Source of the DNA: a virus
Length of the DNA: 20,032 bases
Direction: 5' to 3' (one strand)
Virus record (IMG/VR): IMGVR_UViG_3300047474_000629
Span: 1-20,032 of that record
A model generated the notes under the pieces. The model searched no databases. It saw nothing but the letters and a program-made list of their open reading frames with translations, and had not been told where the DNA came from. A program made the position numbers and the translations under genes. Of this stretch, positions 1 through 20,032 are shown piece after piece (the first letter of the stretch is position 1; every line of letters starts with the position of its first letter).

Positions 1-4599
<4,599 letters not shown>

Positions 4600-8446: not shown

Positions 8447-9184
8447 TTAATTTTTATTATTATAAATATATGAACCTGAAGTTGTAATAGTTATTCCTTT
8501 TTCTACTGCTTCTTGATAATATTGTAGTAAATCTTCTACAATAGAATCTCTATGGTTGCTATGTAATGTAATAGCTTCTAAATTTTTAATTTTTCTAGCT
8601 GCTGTATATAGGAATTTAAATCCAGATTCTGATTTTTTCTTTAAATCAGTTTGGTATTGGTCTCCACATATCATCATTTTACTTCTTAAACCAATACGAG
8701 ATGTAATCATTTCCATTTGTTCGTGAGTAACATTTTGTGCCTCATCTACAATAATCATTGAATCTAAAAATGTTCTACCCCTCATAAAAGATACAGGTAC
8801 TATTTCAATTTTACCATCTTCGATTAATTTTTCTACTTTAACTTTATCGTGGAGTTGAAATAAATTTTGATATATTGGTTGAACCCAGGGATCCATTTTT
8901 TCTCTTAAATCACCAGGTAAAAATCCTATCTCTTCTTTTGATACTGTAGGTCTAGTGATAATAATTTTTTCATATTGTCTACGTAATAAACCATCTAATG
9001 CAACATTACATGCTAGAAGTGTTTTTCCACTTCCAGCTCCACCTGCTAATAAGGTAATTGTATTTTCAAGTATAGAGGATTTCGCTTCTTTTTGTTCGGC
9101 ATTAAGTTGGAGTTTGAACTTAATTGGGTTTTTTGGAATTCTCTTCGGACGGTAAACGTCGTCAGTGTGCGGTTTAGACGCCAT
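8447..9184 (-). CDS. phoH: PhoH-like P-loop ATPase
   Basis: A 245-residue protein of the PhoH family (helicase superfamily 1-like ATPases). The Walker A motif is GGAGSGKT at residues 48-55, followed by ITRPTVSKEEIGFLPGD. Walker B is IIVDEAQN at 144-151, and the later GDQYQTDL (174-181) and HSNHRDS (208-214) motifs match the family. PhoH proteins are common in marine T4-like phages; their job is unsettled, with RNA metabolism the usual proposal. The start is well defined because a stop lies four codons upstream in frame. It sits just after the capsid gene and its terminator. The C-terminal codons (YIYNNKN) contain a full copy of the conserved A/T motif. Confidence 0.93.
   Translation of the reverse strand: MASKPHTDDVYRPKRIPKNPIKFKLQLNAEQKEAKSSILENTITLLAGGAGSGKTLLACNVALDGLLRRQYEKIIITRPTVSKEEIGFLPGDLREKMDPWVQPIYQNLFQLHDKVKVEKLIEDGKIEIVPVSFMRGRTFLDSMIIVDEAQNVTHEQMEMITSRIGLRSKMMICGDQYQTDLKKKSESGFKFLYTAARKIKNLEAITLHSNHRDSIVEDLLQYYQEAVEKGITITTSGSYIYNNKN
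8457..8469 (-). promoter_or_regulatory. conserved A/T motif inside the phoH 3' end (copy 4)
   Basis: The coding strand reads ATATTTATAATAA, encoding most of the C-terminal YIYNNKN of PhoH. It lies 36 nt upstream of the 180-aa gene, in tandem with copy 3. Confidence 0.4.
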
Positions 9185-9381: not shown

Positions 9382-11052
9382 TTATAGAGTATTTAAACCT
9401 GCTACATTGATAGTACCATAGAATTCCGGACGAACCATTTTCTTAGCATATCTAGTTAATAGACCTTTTCTTGGTACGAACGTATCTGGATCGTATACAA
9501 GAGGAGTCATGATTAACGGAATGTAAGGAGCGAATACAGCACCACTTTCCAAGAACTGAGTACCACGGTATCCTAATAGGATTGTGTTAGCAGTCATGTA
9601 AGGGTTTTTGTATACTTTTTGGCGGCTATTTAAAGCACCAACTTTTTGTACACCAAATGCGTAACTTGCTTTAGCAGCATCTCCATCTGAATCAGCAGCA
9701 AATCCAGGAATAGATTCCAAGATAGTAGCTACAGTTGGGGAAACAACCATAAAGTTAGCACCACCACGTAAAGTTTTCTGGTGGATGATGTTGCTCAATT
9801 TTTGGATTTTAGTTCCAAGTGTTTGGAACCACTGTCCTTGAGAATTGTAGAATCCTAAGTCAGACTGTACAAGACCATCAATTGCTTGATTGTTTACAGC
9901 AGACCATACTTCTGTTCCTGCAGCAGCACTTTCAATCAACATAGAAAGAATTTCTAGGTCAATTTCTAATGAAATGTACTCACTAAGGATAGAAGTTAAT
10001 TCAGCTTCAGCATCTAATGCATGGTATGCATTCAAATCCTGTGCGAATTCTGGAGTCCATACAGCTTTAAGTTTTCTAGTTTTAGCAACAATAGCAGATG
10101 ATTGCATCTGGATGTTGATTTCTGGAATAACTTGCTCAGGAGTTCCTTCAGCGTTAAATGTATTTGGGGTTGCGTTGCCAGCTTCAAAATCACCTCTAGC
10201 ATTATCTTGAGGTTGGATTTGATAGTTAACAAGCACGTTAAGGTTACCACCAGCTGCAATATCAGCATCAGCACATACAAATTTAACACTTGTACCATCG
10301 TACTTTGTAAATTCAGATAATTGTACACCAGCAACAGAACCATCAGATCCTGTAATTACAGAAGTAGATAAAGATCCACTAAATAATTGGAATCCTTGTA
10401 CACCTTCTAAATCAGCATAAGCTAAGTCATCAGCAGCAACAGAAATTACTTGGTAAGTACCAGCAGAAGCTGAAGCAGAGTAATCAGAGTTATAGTTGAA
10501 ATCATCCCATTCTGCAGATTCAATAAGAGTAGCAGTTACAGCTGATTCAGTGTTTTGAATAGAATACCCGAAACGACCAGATCCGTAAAGACCACCTGTG
10601 TTTGTATTACCAAAAGGGTTGTTACCACCTTTGTCACCATATAAAGAACCACCAGCAGCGAATGGAGACTTAGCAGATCCATATTGGAAATCTAAAAAGA
10701 ATACAAGGCCAGAAGGCAAGTTCATTGGTTGTACTGATACAAATTCCTGTGCAGCAATTTGACCAAATACTTTACGTACTAATGGTAAAGCTACACCAGC
10801 CCACTGTCCACCAACGTTTACGCCAGTTTGTGACTGAAATGTACCACCACCACTTACACCACCACTAGTTTGTGATGATTCTACAACAAGTTGTTTAGCT
10901 TGGTTTTCAAGGATCATACCCATGTTATTTTTCTGGGCACCACCTAAACCTTCTAATAAACCTGTTTTTTCCCATTTGCTAGCTAATCTAGCCGCGTCAG
11001 ACTGTAAAGACTGATATGGGTTCGCGCTTTCTAAAAGAGTATTTAAGCTCAT
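9382..11052 (-). CDS. gp23: major capsid protein, T4 gp23-like
   Basis: A 556-residue protein with clear gp23 features: KWEKTGLLEGL near the N-terminus, MILENQAKQ (46-54), then APLVRKVF-like ALPLVRKVFGQIAAQEFVSV followed by QPMNLPSGLVFFLDFQYG. Farther on are KTRKLKAVWTPEFAQDL and HALDAEAELTSILSEYIS, matching the T4 KSRALKAEYTTELAQDL and HGLDAETELANILS region. It forms the hexameric HK97-fold capsid lattice. The N-terminal ~58 residues are probably a delta domain removed by the prohead protease; VVE58 aligns roughly with the T4 cut site. Coding DNA is visibly less AT-rich than its neighbours and uses more C-ending codons, as expected for the most highly expressed gene. The scaffold gene is 35 nt upstream and a strong terminator follows. 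Confidence 0.95.
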   Translation of the reverse strand: MSLNTLLESANPYQSLQSDAARLASKWEKTGLLEGLGGAQKNNMGMILENQAKQLVVESSQTSGGVSGGGTFQSQTGVNVGGQWAGVALPLVRKVFGQIAAQEFVSVQPMNLPSGLVFFLDFQYGSAKSPFAAGGSLYGDKGGNNPFGNTNTGGLYGSGRFGYSIQNTESAVTATLIESAEWDDFNYNSDYSASASAGTYQVISVAADDLAYADLEGVQGFQLFSGSLSTSVITGSDGSVAGVQLSEFTKYDGTSVKFVCADADIAAGGNLNVLVNYQIQPQDNARGDFEAGNATPNTFNAEGTPEQVIPEINIQMQSSAIVAKTRKLKAVWTPEFAQDLNAYHALDAEAELTSILSEYISLEIDLEILSMLIESAAAGTEVWSAVNNQAIDGLVQSDLGFYNSQGQWFQTLGTKIQKLSNIIHQKTLRGGANFMVVSPTVATILESIPGFAADSDGDAAKASYAFGVQKVGALNSRQKVYKNPYMTANTILLGYRGTQFLESGAVFAPYIPLIMTPLVYDPDTFVPRKGLLTRYAKKMVRPEFYGTINVAGLNTL

Positions 11053-12394: not shown

Positions 12395-13000
12395 TTAAAA
12401 AATAGCACAATTTCCTTTAGAACAAAGGATTTCGTGTATTACTTTATTTACATTAGTATAATCATATGTAATCATATTTTTACCTTCATTTAAAGTATGC
12501 ATGTAAGAGCCTGGGTTAGATGGTGTTGAAACAAAATCCCAACACAATAATTCAAAGTCATCTTGTACTTCCATTACACCACCTCTTTCTTCTAAAGAAC
12601 CCATACCACGAGATGATACACCTACTGTAATACCACTTTTAATAAGTTCCTTTAATATATTACCTGATGGGGTTGGTAAGATTTCTATTTTACCCATCAC
12701 ATTATCTCCATCCCAAAAATAATCAGTAATTAAATGAGATACATTTTTTAAGTTTATAACAGTAGATTCTGGGTGGTCTAATTCTCCCATTGAACGTCTT
12801 TGTTCAATAAGCTCTTTATATTTATCCATTTCTCTATTCCAAAGATCTTTAGAGTAATAACGACCGTTACCATTTTTTACTTCAGCAGTAGCTAAAATAC
12901 CTTCTACCATTAAATTTCCATTATCTGAATTAACGTTTTCAGTTAATTGAGAAGGGGAAATCTTAACAGTATGAGTTTCTATTAAGAGTTTTTTACTCAT
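12395..13000 (-). CDS. gp21: prohead maturation protease, T4 gp21-like
   Basis: A 201-residue serine protease of the phage prohead/herpesvirus-assemblin type. Visible motifs are NGNGRYYSKDLW (43-54), GELDHPES with the likely catalytic His76, GVSSRGMGS with the likely nucleophile Ser129 or Ser130, and WDFVSTPSNPG (154-164) ending the fold. This enzyme sits inside the prohead core, cleaves scaffold and the capsid N-terminus, then destroys itself. Length is close to T4 gp21 (212 aa). It lies 2 nt after the 420-aa gene and directly upstream of the scaffold leader. The C-terminal ~25 residues after NEGKN are not conserved in pattern and may be a self-cleaved tail. Confidence 0.93.
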   Translation of the reverse strand: MSKKLLIETHTVKISPSQLTENVNSDNGNLMVEGILATAEVKNGNGRYYSKDLWNREMDKYKELIEQRRSMGELDHPESTVINLKNVSHLITDYFWDGDNVMGKIEILPTPSGNILKELIKSGITVGVSSRGMGSLEERGGVMEVQDDFELLCWDFVSTPSNPGSYMHTLNEGKNMITYDYTNVNKVIHEILCSKGNCAIF

Positions 13001-16053: not shown

Positions 16054-17979
16054 TTATTTCTTTAACTGGTTTTCATCTAACAATGAAGTATTATCTTTAT
16101 TTTCTTCAAATACTAATTGCTTTTTGTTGGGTTGAGGAATAGACTTAAACATATCTAAGTTTTTTAGATATGTAGTTTTAGCACTTTCTAATGCTAATGG
16201 ACTACCTCCTTTAAATTTAGGTTTAATAGAATCAGAATCATTTTTATCTTTATCTTTCATACCCTTTACACCTAAACGATCTTTACCAAAATTATCATCT
16301 TGTGTATTTCGTTTTGTATTTGTTTTTTGTGGGCGTCCTAATTTAGGATCATCTTCATTATACCCATCAGGAACATTTCCAGGATCTGTATACATTCTAC
16401 CTTTACCATATAAAGAAGCTAAATCATGGGGTGTACCATATGATTTACCTGTTTCAACAGGATCATTTCCTTCTGCTTCAATTTGTGCTAATCTAAATTT
16501 ACGTTTGGCATCTTCTCTAGATAGATCTCTCATTTCATCATATTGATCTTCACTAAAGTGATAAACATTATCATAAATCCAATCAGATGATACTAAACCT
16601 TGTTCTAATAAATTTCCAGCTAGTTCTGTTTTGGATTTTAATAGTTCTACTTTTTCTTGTTCTAGTACTATTGAAGGGCTAGTCATATTTAATGAAAAAT
16701 TAGTTAAAGTTTCATTAGTATAACCTTGGGTATATAAATGGACTAAAGCAATTTTATTTAATTCTGAAAGGATTATTCGTTGTAATCTTTCAATTGTACG
16801 AGCAAATCTAATATCTTGGGCTGCCAATGTAGATTTTCCTTCTAGGTCTGCTTCATACCCCATAAAAGCTTTAGGAATTTTAAGGGCAGCGAACAGTTTT
16901 TCCCTTAAGTATTCTACATCTTGAATTCCATCATATTGTAATCCAGGTGTAGTATCTATTTTAGTTGTTTGATCATTTCCACGAACTGGGATGTAAAAAT
17001 CCTCCATCATGTTCATCATATTATATTTTAAATTATACTCACCTGTTTTATTATCTTGGAAAGGGGTGCGCTTTAAATTTGAAATAGTTTTTTGCATAAA
17101 TGCATCTATTTCATTTGGGGGAATAGATCCAACATTCATATAAAAAATACGTTTTTCAGGGGCACGAGCAATTCTATGGATTAACATTGCATCTTCCATT
17201 AATACATACTGTTTATATAATTTACGAGCAGGTTCGATATATGAACGACCGTAAGGAAGATAATTAACATCTGAAATAAGTCTAAAATGAGCCATTTCAT
17301 AGTTATCAAAATATATTCCAGGTTCATCCATTGTGCCCCCTGGTTGTTGACCACCTACAGGATACATACCTGAACTAATATTAGATAACCCATCTGGAGA
17401 ATATCTATATCTAATTTCTGTTGGGTTTTCAGGGTTGAATCCTTCTTGCCTTTCAATGTGGTATGCAGTGTAAGGGATTACATTATATACTCCATATTTT
17501 TCAGCGATTTCCATTTTTAGGAAAAAATCACCATATTTACACATTTGACGAATCCAAGGCCATAGATTAAATTCAACATTCAATACATCATAAAATAAAT
17601 TATAAAGTATTTTTTGAATATCTTCATTAGCACTTCTAATTTGAAGCACTTCACCCATATCATTTTTAAGTGTAGATTCATCAGCTAAAATATCAAGTGC
17701 TGAAGCTATGATAGCATCTTGATCCATTACATCGTATTCGGAATATAATGTTGGTCTAAGATATTGATAGTTTTGGTTAAATTGAGCTCCATATAAAGAT
17801 GAGGGGTTAGTAGAATATATTCTATTATATCTATCAATTAATGAGTTAGTTTCTAATTCACCAGTTGCTTGTATGGTACTACTATCTATTACTTTAATTT
17901 GATTACCCCCAACATTTCTGATAATTACATCAGTTGAAAATAATCTTTTTAATCTTGAAAATACGCTTTTATCAGCCAT
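16054..17979 (-). CDS. gp20: portal vertex protein, T4 gp20-like
   Basis: A 641-residue protein forming the dodecameric ring through which DNA is packaged and to which the neck attaches. Family marks include SEYDVMDQDAIIASALDILAD (81-100), WPWIRQMCKYGDFFLKMEI (140-158), the highly conserved MEDAMLIHRIARAPEKRIFY (261-280), and MMEDFYIPVRGNDQTTKIDT (324-343), which matches the T4 MTEDYWLQRRDG region. LREKLFAALKIPKAFMG (358-374) and the following helix fit the portal crown/stem. It is longer than T4 gp20 (524 aa) mainly because of a polar C-terminal tail (after about residue 490) rich in Lys, Asp and Asn. It lies 27 nt after the terminase, with the conserved A/T motif in the gap. Confidence 0.95.
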   Translation of the reverse strand: MADKSVFSRLKRLFSTDVIIRNVGGNQIKVIDSSTIQATGELETNSLIDRYNRIYSTNPSSLYGAQFNQNYQYLRPTLYSEYDVMDQDAIIASALDILADESTLKNDMGEVLQIRSANEDIQKILYNLFYDVLNVEFNLWPWIRQMCKYGDFFLKMEIAEKYGVYNVIPYTAYHIERQEGFNPENPTEIRYRYSPDGLSNISSGMYPVGGQQPGGTMDEPGIYFDNYEMAHFRLISDVNYLPYGRSYIEPARKLYKQYVLMEDAMLIHRIARAPEKRIFYMNVGSIPPNEIDAFMQKTISNLKRTPFQDNKTGEYNLKYNMMNMMEDFYIPVRGNDQTTKIDTTPGLQYDGIQDVEYLREKLFAALKIPKAFMGYEADLEGKSTLAAQDIRFARTIERLQRIILSELNKIALVHLYTQGYTNETLTNFSLNMTSPSIVLEQEKVELLKSKTELAGNLLEQGLVSSDWIYDNVYHFSEDQYDEMRDLSREDAKRKFRLAQIEAEGNDPVETGKSYGTPHDLASLYGKGRMYTDPGNVPDGYNEDDPKLGRPQKTNTKRNTQDDNFGKDRLGVKGMKDKDKNDSDSIKPKFKGGSPLALESAKTTYLKNLDMFKSIPQPNKKQLVFEENKDNTSLLDENQLKK

Positions 17980-18006: not shown

Positions 18007-19578
18007 CTATAGAAGCCACCTAATATCCTCTTTGCCATCTGCTGTTTGTATATTATATGGATTGCCTTGACTTGCATTATTTCCATACCCTGCTTGGAAA
18101 GGAGTTCTATTTACCGTCATACTTCCTAAGGCATTTTTTGTAGCATCTAAACCTCTTTGTCTCATTTTTAATGCTGTATCTCTAACATACATAGCAATTC
18201 CAAAGGACATTACTAAGTCATCATTATATCCACTTTGGGCTTCTGCTCTATTATTTTTCCATATAAAGGTTTTCATTTCTTCTATTAACCTTTTTGATTG
18301 TATTGTTACTCCTTTATCACCAATATATTCTTGAAATTTACCTATTATCATAGGTCTAGTTCTAGAAGACATAGTAAAACCAGCTACCATTTTGGAGTGG
18401 TCTTGATACTTGTCAAAATACGAATTAGCTGTTGGGGAATCACTCTTTTGTGAATAATAAAGATTAGGATATGCTCTATCAATAGCAACTTGTATAGTTG
18501 CCCAACCTATATTAGCATTTTCAATTACTAACATTGCCTCATTATATTCAGTAGCTAAACCTACTAGTAAATGCCCATACTCTTTAGTCCCTAATTGGCC
18601 CTTATATTCTGCTACTTGTACATTATTTGCTATATCAATTACATGACATGCGGAGTAATCTTTTCCATCGCCACGAGCAACATCAGCTACTACAACATAA
18701 TCCCTAGTATAATCAGGTGATTCCCAAACCCATAAATTTTGGTCTGCACCTCTTCTTTCCATTGGATCTTTTATATATGTTTTTTCATAAAAATCTATAT
18801 ATTCAGGATAAAATACAATATCACCTGAAGTGCTAAAATCGCAATCACATTCTTGTGCAGCCATTCTAGGATCACCTAGTAATTCATCTTGTCGTTTTCT
18901 CCATGCTTCGTCCCTTTCAGGATGTACATACCAAGGTAATTTAATAGGTAAGAATTGATTTTCACTAGATTCTGCTCTAACCCATGTTTGATGAAACCAA
19001 TTACCAGTACCATAAGGTGTAGATAATGCTATACAACCACCTCCAGTTGCTAATGTTTGTTGTGCTGATGCCCAAATCTCCCCAATGTTATCAATAAATG
19101 CTGCCTCATCAATTAGTAGTAAGGATACTGCTTCTGATCTACCGGCATCACTTGATGCTGATGTAGCTTTTATTTGGGATCCATTTACTAATCTTAGTGT
19201 TAATTTGTTATTTTCAGCTGCGTCTACTTTAAGCCATGAAGGTAAATTTTCATACATGAATTTTACCTTTGTAACCATGTTTTTAGCAGTTTCCTGCTTT
19301 GTCGCTATACAAAGTATGTTTTTGTCTTTGTGGAATATCATTAACCATAAAGAATAACCTGCTGATAATGTTGATATCCCTAACTGTCTAGATTTTAAGA
19401 TAATCGAATATGGATTATCGCGCATTAACGTTAATACTTTTTCTTGAAAAGGATAAAGATTAAACTGAATACGTCCTCTTTGTGGATGTTGTATATAACA
19501 ATATTTACGCATAAAGTGTACTGGGTCTTTAGCGCATCTTAAATATTCTTGACGTATTACCTTTTTTAAATCAGACAT
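18007..19578 (-). CDS. terL: terminase large subunit (packaging ATPase-nuclease), T4 gp17-like
   Basis: A 523-residue DNA packaging motor that docks on the portal, pumps DNA and cuts concatemers. ATPase motifs: Walker A variant SRQLGIST (64-71, S64 to T70 core), Walker B LLLIDEAAF (153-161, D157/E158), and the coupling motif STPYG (186-190). Nuclease acidic residues of the RNase-H-like fold appear as VVADVARGDGKDYS (D299), VIENANIG (E353) and YNDDLVMSFG (D453/D454). The N-terminal ADQ-type region (FMRKYCYIQHPQRGRIQFNLYPFQ) fits the family. It is a little shorter than T4 gp17 (610 aa). It starts 3 nt after the 134-aa gene and is followed directly by the portal gene; T4 has the tail sheath and tube genes 18 and 19 in between. 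Confidence 0.96.
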   Translation of the reverse strand: MSDLKKVIRQEYLRCAKDPVHFMRKYCYIQHPQRGRIQFNLYPFQEKVLTLMRDNPYSIILKSRQLGISTLSAGYSLWLMIFHKDKNILCIATKQETAKNMVTKVKFMYENLPSWLKVDAAENNKLTLRLVNGSQIKATSASSDAGRSEAVSLLLIDEAAFIDNIGEIWASAQQTLATGGGCIALSTPYGTGNWFHQTWVRAESSENQFLPIKLPWYVHPERDEAWRKRQDELLGDPRMAAQECDCDFSTSGDIVFYPEYIDFYEKTYIKDPMERRGADQNLWVWESPDYTRDYVVVADVARGDGKDYSACHVIDIANNVQVAEYKGQLGTKEYGHLLVGLATEYNEAMLVIENANIGWATIQVAIDRAYPNLYYSQKSDSPTANSYFDKYQDHSKMVAGFTMSSRTRPMIIGKFQEYIGDKGVTIQSKRLIEEMKTFIWKNNRAEAQSGYNDDLVMSFGIAMYVRDTALKMRQRGLDATKNALGSMTVNRTPFQAGYGNNASQGNPYNIQTADGKEDIRWLL

Positions 19579-19581
19579 ATA

Positions 19582-19986
19582 TTATTTTAATATAAGAATT
19601 ACCCCAGCAATAGCCACTAAACCAGCCCCACCCATTAGTTTAGTTTTTAATTTTTGTTTTTTTAAGTCTGTTTGAAGTCTTTTAGATAATTCCTGAGATA
19701 AAGCTAGTTGGTTTGATTTTGTTATCATTATAGATTCAAAATTTCCTACTTGGAAATTTAAATTTTTTATAACACTATCTTTTAAAACAACTTTCTGTTC
19801 TAATAATCTTAGTTTACTTAAACTAAGTGATAATTCTTCTTTAGCTCCATCACCAGTAATTAAATCCTTAATTACTAGTTTCGCTATTGGTTTTTTCAAT
19901 TGAATTGATGTACTGTCCGTAACGTTCTGTGAAAAACCTTTCAAGCTCATCATCATCAAAAGAATCAACGGCATTAACTTTTTCAT
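19582..19986 (-). CDS. secreted coiled-coil protein with C-terminal membrane segment (lysis-type candidate)
   Basis: A 134-residue protein. Residues 1-20 (MKKLMPLILLMMMSLKGFSQ) are a textbook signal peptide, with likely cleavage after Gln20 and no lipobox Cys. Residues 45-115 are Leu/Lys/Ser-rich and read like a coiled coil. Residues 117-133 (LMGGAGLVAIAGVILIL) form a C-terminal membrane span. The predicted layout is a periplasmic coiled coil anchored in the inner membrane at its C-terminus, reminiscent of spanins, but without a lipoprotein signal. Alternatives are a superinfection-exclusion or other envelope protein. It lies 3 nt before terL. Its first ~40 codons overlap the end of the preceding gene in a different frame; no later Met would keep the signal peptide, so the long overlap is needed if this start is right. 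Confidence 0.65.
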   Translation of the reverse strand: MKKLMPLILLMMMSLKGFSQNVTDSTSIQLKKPIAKLVIKDLITGDGAKEELSLSLSKLRLLEQKVVLKDSVIKNLNFQVGNFESIMITKSNQLALSQELSKRLQTDLKKQKLKTKLMGGAGLVAIAGVILILK

Positions 19987-20032
19987 TTACTTTCCATTTT
20001 AAAGTTCTTATTCTATTATCTTTTAAATCAAT
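19868..20032 (-). CDS. C-terminal end of an unidentified gene entering from the right edge
   Basis: An open frame from the window edge to a TAA at 19868-19870 (54 codons seen). The translation has ordinary protein character, with segments such as IRTLKWKVNEKV, FDDDELERFFTERYGQYI and a polar tail ending ETSN. It overlaps the first 119 nt of the 134-aa gene in a different frame. T4 has the small terminase gene just upstream of terL, but these residues are too few to support that assignment. The N-terminus is outside the window. Confidence 0.55.
   Translation of the reverse strand: MDLKDNRIRTLKWKVNEKVNAVDSFDDDELERFFTERYGQYINSIEKTNSETSN

Follow-up and report, generated by a model that had tools for sequence, protein, structure and literature searches.

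An out-of-phase overlapping gene pair, probably spanin-like, beside the terminase gene of a virus record with T4-like head genes and in the lysis cassette of Flavobacterium phage immuto

The stretch analysed here (the window) is the whole of IMG/VR virus record IMGVR_UViG_3300047474_000629, 20,032 nucleotides long, and its right edge is the end of the record. Its head genes are T4-like and lie on the minus strand, as do all the features below; two overlapping genes, here called A and B, lie at the right-hand end.

1-4599, minus strand: collagen-like open frame of ~1,530 aa, truncated at the end of the contig (Pfam Collagen)
8447-9184, minus strand: PhoH-like ATPase (E 3.4e-62), close to the major capsid gene
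9382-11052, minus strand: Gp23 capsid (profile scans)
12395-13000, minus strand: prohead protease (profile scans)
16054-17979, minus strand: portal (profile scans)
18007-19578, minus strand: TerL, the terminase large subunit (Pfam and PHROG scans), directly downstream of B, a neighbour outside the pair
19582-19986, minus strand: gene B, 134 aa, ATG start (ORF list, relatives)
19868-20032, minus strand: 3′ end of gene A, 54 of ~127 codons (relatives give the whole gene)
19868-19986, minus strand: A/B overlap, 119 nt, +1 frame (ORFs, alignment with relatives)
19946-19957, minus strand: GATGATGATGAG, Asp-Asp-Asp-Glu in A, inside the Met-Met-Met run of the B signal peptide

The 1-4599 frame matched Pfam Collagen in three stretches (E 2.8e-224) and probably encodes a very long collagen-like tail or fibre protein. 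Window-clade phages (see below) also carry a P-loop kinase and a nucleotidyltransferase-like ORF upstream of the A/B pair (L006:3616-4146); the kinase of L006 matched a thymidylate-kinase PHROG (E 1.5e-21).

Frame A has its stop side at 19868 and is open to the window edge, its visible 54 aa ending in VDSFDDDELERFFTERYGQYINSIEKTNSETSN. B starts inside the 3′ end of A, with its signal peptide coded over the conserved FFTERY end of A, and the triplets GAT GAT GAT GAG at 19957-19946 read DDDE in A and lie in the MMM run of B. An earlier reading from the sequence only had described the 119-nt overlap at 19868-19986 and the Asp run of one frame doubling as the Met run of the other, and both are confirmed; its impression that the upstream frame looks protein-like is borne out by relatives, in which A is seen whole as a protein of 127 aa with an N-terminal membrane helix, a long helix or coiled coil, and a C-terminal ELERFFTERY.

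A tblastn search with B found a relative in Flavobacterium phage immuto (MW353175), whose gp84 and gp85 are homologous to A (44% identity) and B (49%), both figures referring to the matched parts. Both are deposited as hypothetical proteins. The annotation of immuto gp85 (L082:4950-5351) begins at an internal start; reading from the ATG upstream brings back its signal peptide and lengthens the gp84/gp85 overlap from the annotated 47 nt to 89 nt. For the survey of virus loci we kept the best 80 of 165 from the search for B relatives (L002-L081), the best 80 of 106 from the search with immuto B and the best 80 of 441 from the search with A. Because the best-scoring loci were kept, the counts below, for a window clade and an immuto clade, weight close relatives, and many loci are near-copies; L082 and L083 are one phage, immuto, from two collections and are counted twice. 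Among bacterial genomes a single binned contig (L167) matched, hence there is no prophage series.

The pair was found in 160 of 162 sources across both clades, in the same +1 frame every time. The two sources without it are probably L014 and L019, both cut at a contig end. Frame A ends inside B in 79 of the 82 B-bearing sources formed by the window and L002-L082, and in the other three (L010, L014, L019) the contig ends inside B or within 20 nt of the B start. With the B start chosen by rule, 46 of the 84 window-clade pairs overlap by 119 nt and 31 by 128 nt, and 56 of the 76 pairs in the immuto clade overlap by 92 nt. Searching from A gave the same picture, with an intact overlapping B in 79 of the 80 loci kept; in the sole exception, L195, a single frame change breaks B. 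Save for this locus, no whole A or B without its partner was seen in the loci examined. The sequence-only reading had named disruption of either frame in relatives as evidence against itself; both frames remain open there, and this check did not refute it.

Codon-position conservation over 19868-19986, a check suggested in that reading, was examined by counting changes along a minimum spanning tree of distinct sequences, dropping edges with more than 12 changes; this kept 37 of 46 edges for the overlap in the window clade and 32 of 37 in the immuto clade (32 of 48 and 39 of 43 for the controls). Changes altering B within the overlap came to 0.71 of expectation in the window clade (189 changes) and 0.68 in the immuto clade (87 changes), against 1.09 and 1.20 for a control, a fictitious frame upstream of the overlap. 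This depletion relative to the control indicates that B is a genuine gene, subject to purifying selection. Changes altering both proteins were 43 against 87.1 expected in the window clade and 24 against 41.3 in the immuto clade, roughly half of expectation. Changes altering A showed no depletion in the overlap (0.96 of expectation in both clades), and outside it they came to 0.63 (window clade) and 0.41 (immuto clade). Most overlap changes fell at the first codon position of A, the third of B (101/189 and 46/87 in the window and immuto clades); in sequence coding for A only, most fell at A position 3 (87/164 and 132/177). Since A taken alone is undepleted in the overlap, constraint on A there is visible only jointly and is weaker than that on B; it appears in the few double changes, in the motif FF[TAS][EDN]RY, kept in 151 of 151 A proteins, and in the retention of the overlap in all pairs. 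The changes across the overlap fit selection on both frames, most clearly on B.

A is predicted to be an N-terminally anchored protein like an i-spanin: an N-terminal hydrophobic segment was predicted in every one of the 151 A sequences, as expected of that class, and the AlphaFold2 model has helices at 4-96 and 100-125 (mean pLDDT 75.1). A also matched Rz-like spanin PHROGs (E 0.025-0.074), but these hits lie among 42 weak coiled-coil matches and carry little weight as evidence. The top solved-structure matches of A, reovirus sigma-1 and influenza HA2, are generic coiled coils that we do not take as kinship.

B consists of a signal peptide ending GFS|Q, a conserved PIAKLVIKDLITGDGAKEEL, a long coiled coil, a basic cluster, a C-terminal helix and a final K. 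Its AlphaFold2 model has helices at 32-45 and 48-133 (mean pLDDT 75.5), and its invariant residues are concentrated in the signal peptide and in KDL..DG. The signal peptide ends in SQ in all 160 B proteins (SFSQ 93, GFSQ 51, TFSQ 11, CFSQ 4, GSSQ 1), each obeying the Q rule described for signal peptidase I in Bacteroidetes (PMC10367356). Such signal peptides make lipidation unlikely and point to a cleaved N-terminus, in which case B would be anchored by its C-terminal hydrophobic helix. No lipobox was found in the 160 B proteins screened, so that B lacks the lipidation signal of both o-spanin lipoproteins and unimolecular spanins; SLNC stands just before FSQ in four immuto-clade B proteins (L093, L096, L099, L108) and is not conserved. 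Cysteine is absent from all 84 window-clade B proteins, which therefore lack the residue for the intermolecular disulfide of two-component spanins, and one or more cysteines occur in 75 of 76 immuto-clade ones; immuto gp85 differs from window B in having one Cys in the conserved domain.

The C-terminal helix of window B has 17 uncharged residues. The segment is short throughout, 17 residues at the median and 15 for immuto-clade proteins, in which its hydrophobicity is modest, and a median of 5 (window clade) or 4 (immuto clade) of the 12 residues ahead of it are K or R. Hydropathy support for this helix is mixed: the C-terminal segment passes a simple cut in 90 of 160 B proteins (window B passes, at 2.52), and the N-terminal segment in 85 of 160. 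B had no Pfam or PHROG match, and hence none to a non-envelope family, which the sequence-only reading had singled out as contrary evidence; solved-structure searches gave generic coiled coils only, and Foldseek against viral models gave no match at E 0.001 or better.

The pair occurs in two gene contexts. In immuto it lies behind gp80, a GH19 endolysin (phrog_181, 3e-63), and gp81, annotated as the holin (phrog_199, E 0.00031), with two genes between gp81 and A. Among the 57 immuto-clade loci with both flanks, the holin is directly upstream in 44, TerL is downstream in 8, and neither holds in 5, a group in which immuto itself (L082, L083) is scored on account of those two genes; GH19 and holin are both upstream in 38 of the 51 immuto-clade loci with 1800 nt of upstream sequence. 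All 82 window-clade loci examined have TerL after B, whereas none of 68 has a holin adjoining the pair. Across 14 window-clade records, which are fragments searched without a positive-control match, no GH19 domain exceeded the cut-off (one weak match), and the same kind of search of these fragments gave the immuto-type holin in 0 of 14. The B of L084 is adjacent to TerL yet 81% identical to the lysis-cassette B of immuto, which indicates that A and B travel together from one of these locations to the other. We also inspected by eye the GH19 regions of phages Nekkels, Harreka and phi14:2, where no A/B-like pair was found among the neighbours; g076 of phi14:2 is an N-terminally anchored protein.

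Lipoprotein genes were sought around the pair with a lipobox screen of the loci. It yielded 17 ORFs, three of which are Pro/Tyr/His-rich lipoproteins of 63-72 aa encoded 7-8 nt after B (L101:5533-5751, L117:4152-4346, L120:1756-1947), and thus present in only 3 of the 73 immuto-clade pairs whose sequence continues for 300 nt past B; their composition is Rz1-like, making them candidates for a third lysis component. No lipoprotein gene was found beside the window's own pair. The sequence-only reading had noted that B lacks a lipoprotein partner in view, and for the window this stands, except that the likely partner of B is the upstream gene A itself. In G003, an 81-kb window-clade record (L170, L171), a cluster at ~36.9-39.6 kb holds a DUF5675 protein, a 196-aa lipoprotein-like ORF, a thioredoxin-like secreted protein and small membrane proteins; it is a possible lysis region apart from the A/B pair, which lies ~40 kb from the lipoprotein-like ORF.

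We propose, with a probability of about 0.7, that A and B together are a spanin-like pair of Bacteroidota phages for outer-membrane disruption, in which B is a tail-anchored protein processed by signal peptidase I and not a lipoprotein. The predicted role in lysis is well supported by synteny, homology and architecture; topology, the pairing of A with B and the disruption step we infer as follows. A would be anchored in the inner membrane via its N-terminal helix and extend a ~100-residue periplasmic rod tipped by FFTERY. B would leave the cytoplasm through Sec and lose its signal peptide to signal peptidase I, the cut falling directly ahead of the glutamine. Its C-terminal hydrophobic helix would then serve as the anchor, the inner membrane being the likeliest site (N-out, C-in), and the conserved PIAKLVIKDL..GDG domain would lie at the end away from it. 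The two rods may pair, antiparallel or end-to-end; after loss of the peptidoglycan to holin and endolysin action, collapse of the complex would draw the membranes together and open the outer one. Candidates for contact with the outer membrane are the tip of B or of A, the B helix itself, or a separate lipoprotein.

The last of these candidates would make a three-part system, with A and B both in the inner membrane and a phage outer-membrane lipoprotein in the o-spanin role. The Pro/Tyr-rich genes just after B in L101, L117 and L120 speak for it, as does the lipoprotein-like ORF among small membrane proteins beside the DUF5675 protein of G003; the former accompany so few immuto-clade pairs, with no counterpart beside the window pair, and the latter is so distant from its pair, that we regard such a system as possible but doubtful. 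It is unlikely, in our view, that B is instead the outer-membrane partner, its helix (or basic cluster plus helix) replacing the lipid and A and B bridging the envelope end to end like Rz-Rz1. The periplasm is 20 nm or more wide, and rods of ~100 and 90 residues (13-15 nm at 1.5 Å per residue) would be too short singly but could be long enough end to end; the K/R cluster ahead of the helix and the modest C-terminal hydrophobicity in the immuto clade point the same way. However, a C-terminal hydrophobic helix of a Sec-exported protein normally halts in the inner membrane.

Another reading is that A and B are membrane proteins regulating holin timing or superinfection exclusion. Small membrane proteins adjoining holin genes are often antiholins, and the position of the window-clade pair away from a holin also speaks for it. 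We think this improbable: spanins better account for the long coiled coils in the periplasm, for an overlapped pair closing the cassette, and for the joint inheritance of A and B in each of the two contexts. The invariable TerL gene after B in the window clade could suggest a packaging accessory or small terminase, but the pair has a signal peptide and membrane helices, lies by the holin rather than TerL in most immuto-clade loci and has no terminase match; we consider such a role very remote, and the small terminase subunit is rejected on the signal peptide and the changed neighbours. Returning to the spanin-like pair, a more far-reaching and decidedly tentative extension is a spanin class particular to Bacteroidota phages and without any lipidated subunit, in which type II and type I membrane rods are encoded in overlapping frames and protein helices alone would disrupt the outer membrane.

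By the account of Kongari et al. 2018, topologies like that of A/B fell outside the search criteria, and a 2025 survey that filtered o-spanins by lipobox states that Bacteroidetes phages use only unimolecular spanins (PMC12596118). Our search of the literature on spanins and lysis in Bacteroidota and flavobacterial phages, which covered subscription journals sparsely, found no description of the A/B pair. Here a conserved pair of overlapping genes, with the topology so excluded, lies in the lysis cassette of a cultured Flavobacterium phage, which makes outer-membrane breakage in Bacteroidota phages directly testable; FFTERY, the Q-rule signal and KDL..DG are motifs for finding more such pairs.

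Sphingomonas phage PAU has a similar overlapping pair, gp291/gp292, with coiled coils and a C-terminal helix. The annotated start of gp292 (L163:5107-5568) seems to lie too far downstream: read from the ATG before it, the protein gains a signal peptide, as B has, here with SSQ. Unlike A, gp291 has extra N-terminal hydrophobic segments, and a single weak match of A (E 0.3) is the link to A/B. Searching with gp292 led to no further relatives: IMG/VR gave only PAU, and among phages there were PAU and two matches at chance level. Its Q-rule-like signal makes the named host (Sphingomonas) worth checking.

Spanin architectures number three, overlapped genes being one of them (PMC6139136). Unimolecular spanins of the T1 gp11 type resemble B in having an N-terminal signal and a periplasmic domain, and also a C-terminal hydrophobic helix, for which hydropathy support in B is mixed; B differs in lacking a lipobox and in being helical (the periplasmic domain of T1 gp11 is mainly beta; PMC6139136), and they act as single genes whereas B always overlaps A where visible. 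The o-spanins of two-component systems are lipoproteins, whereas B has a signal of the signal peptidase I type and a C-terminal hydrophobic helix, and no sequence homology of the pair to such systems was found. The lysis reading drawn from the sequence only is supported, in that relatives sit after a GH19 endolysin and a holin; with no lipobox in B and no lipoprotein partner found for the window's pair, the pair is spanin-like rather than a demonstrated two-component spanin. Linkage to holin and endolysin is itself usual and not universal, the lysis genes of T4-like phages not being clustered (PMC6139136). What A/B share with overlapped two-component spanins of the Rz/Rz1 kind is the arrangement as adjacent, out-of-phase overlapping genes, the i-spanin build of A, with its predicted N-terminal membrane helix and periplasmic coiled coil, and, in immuto-clade relatives, the place after holin and endolysin.
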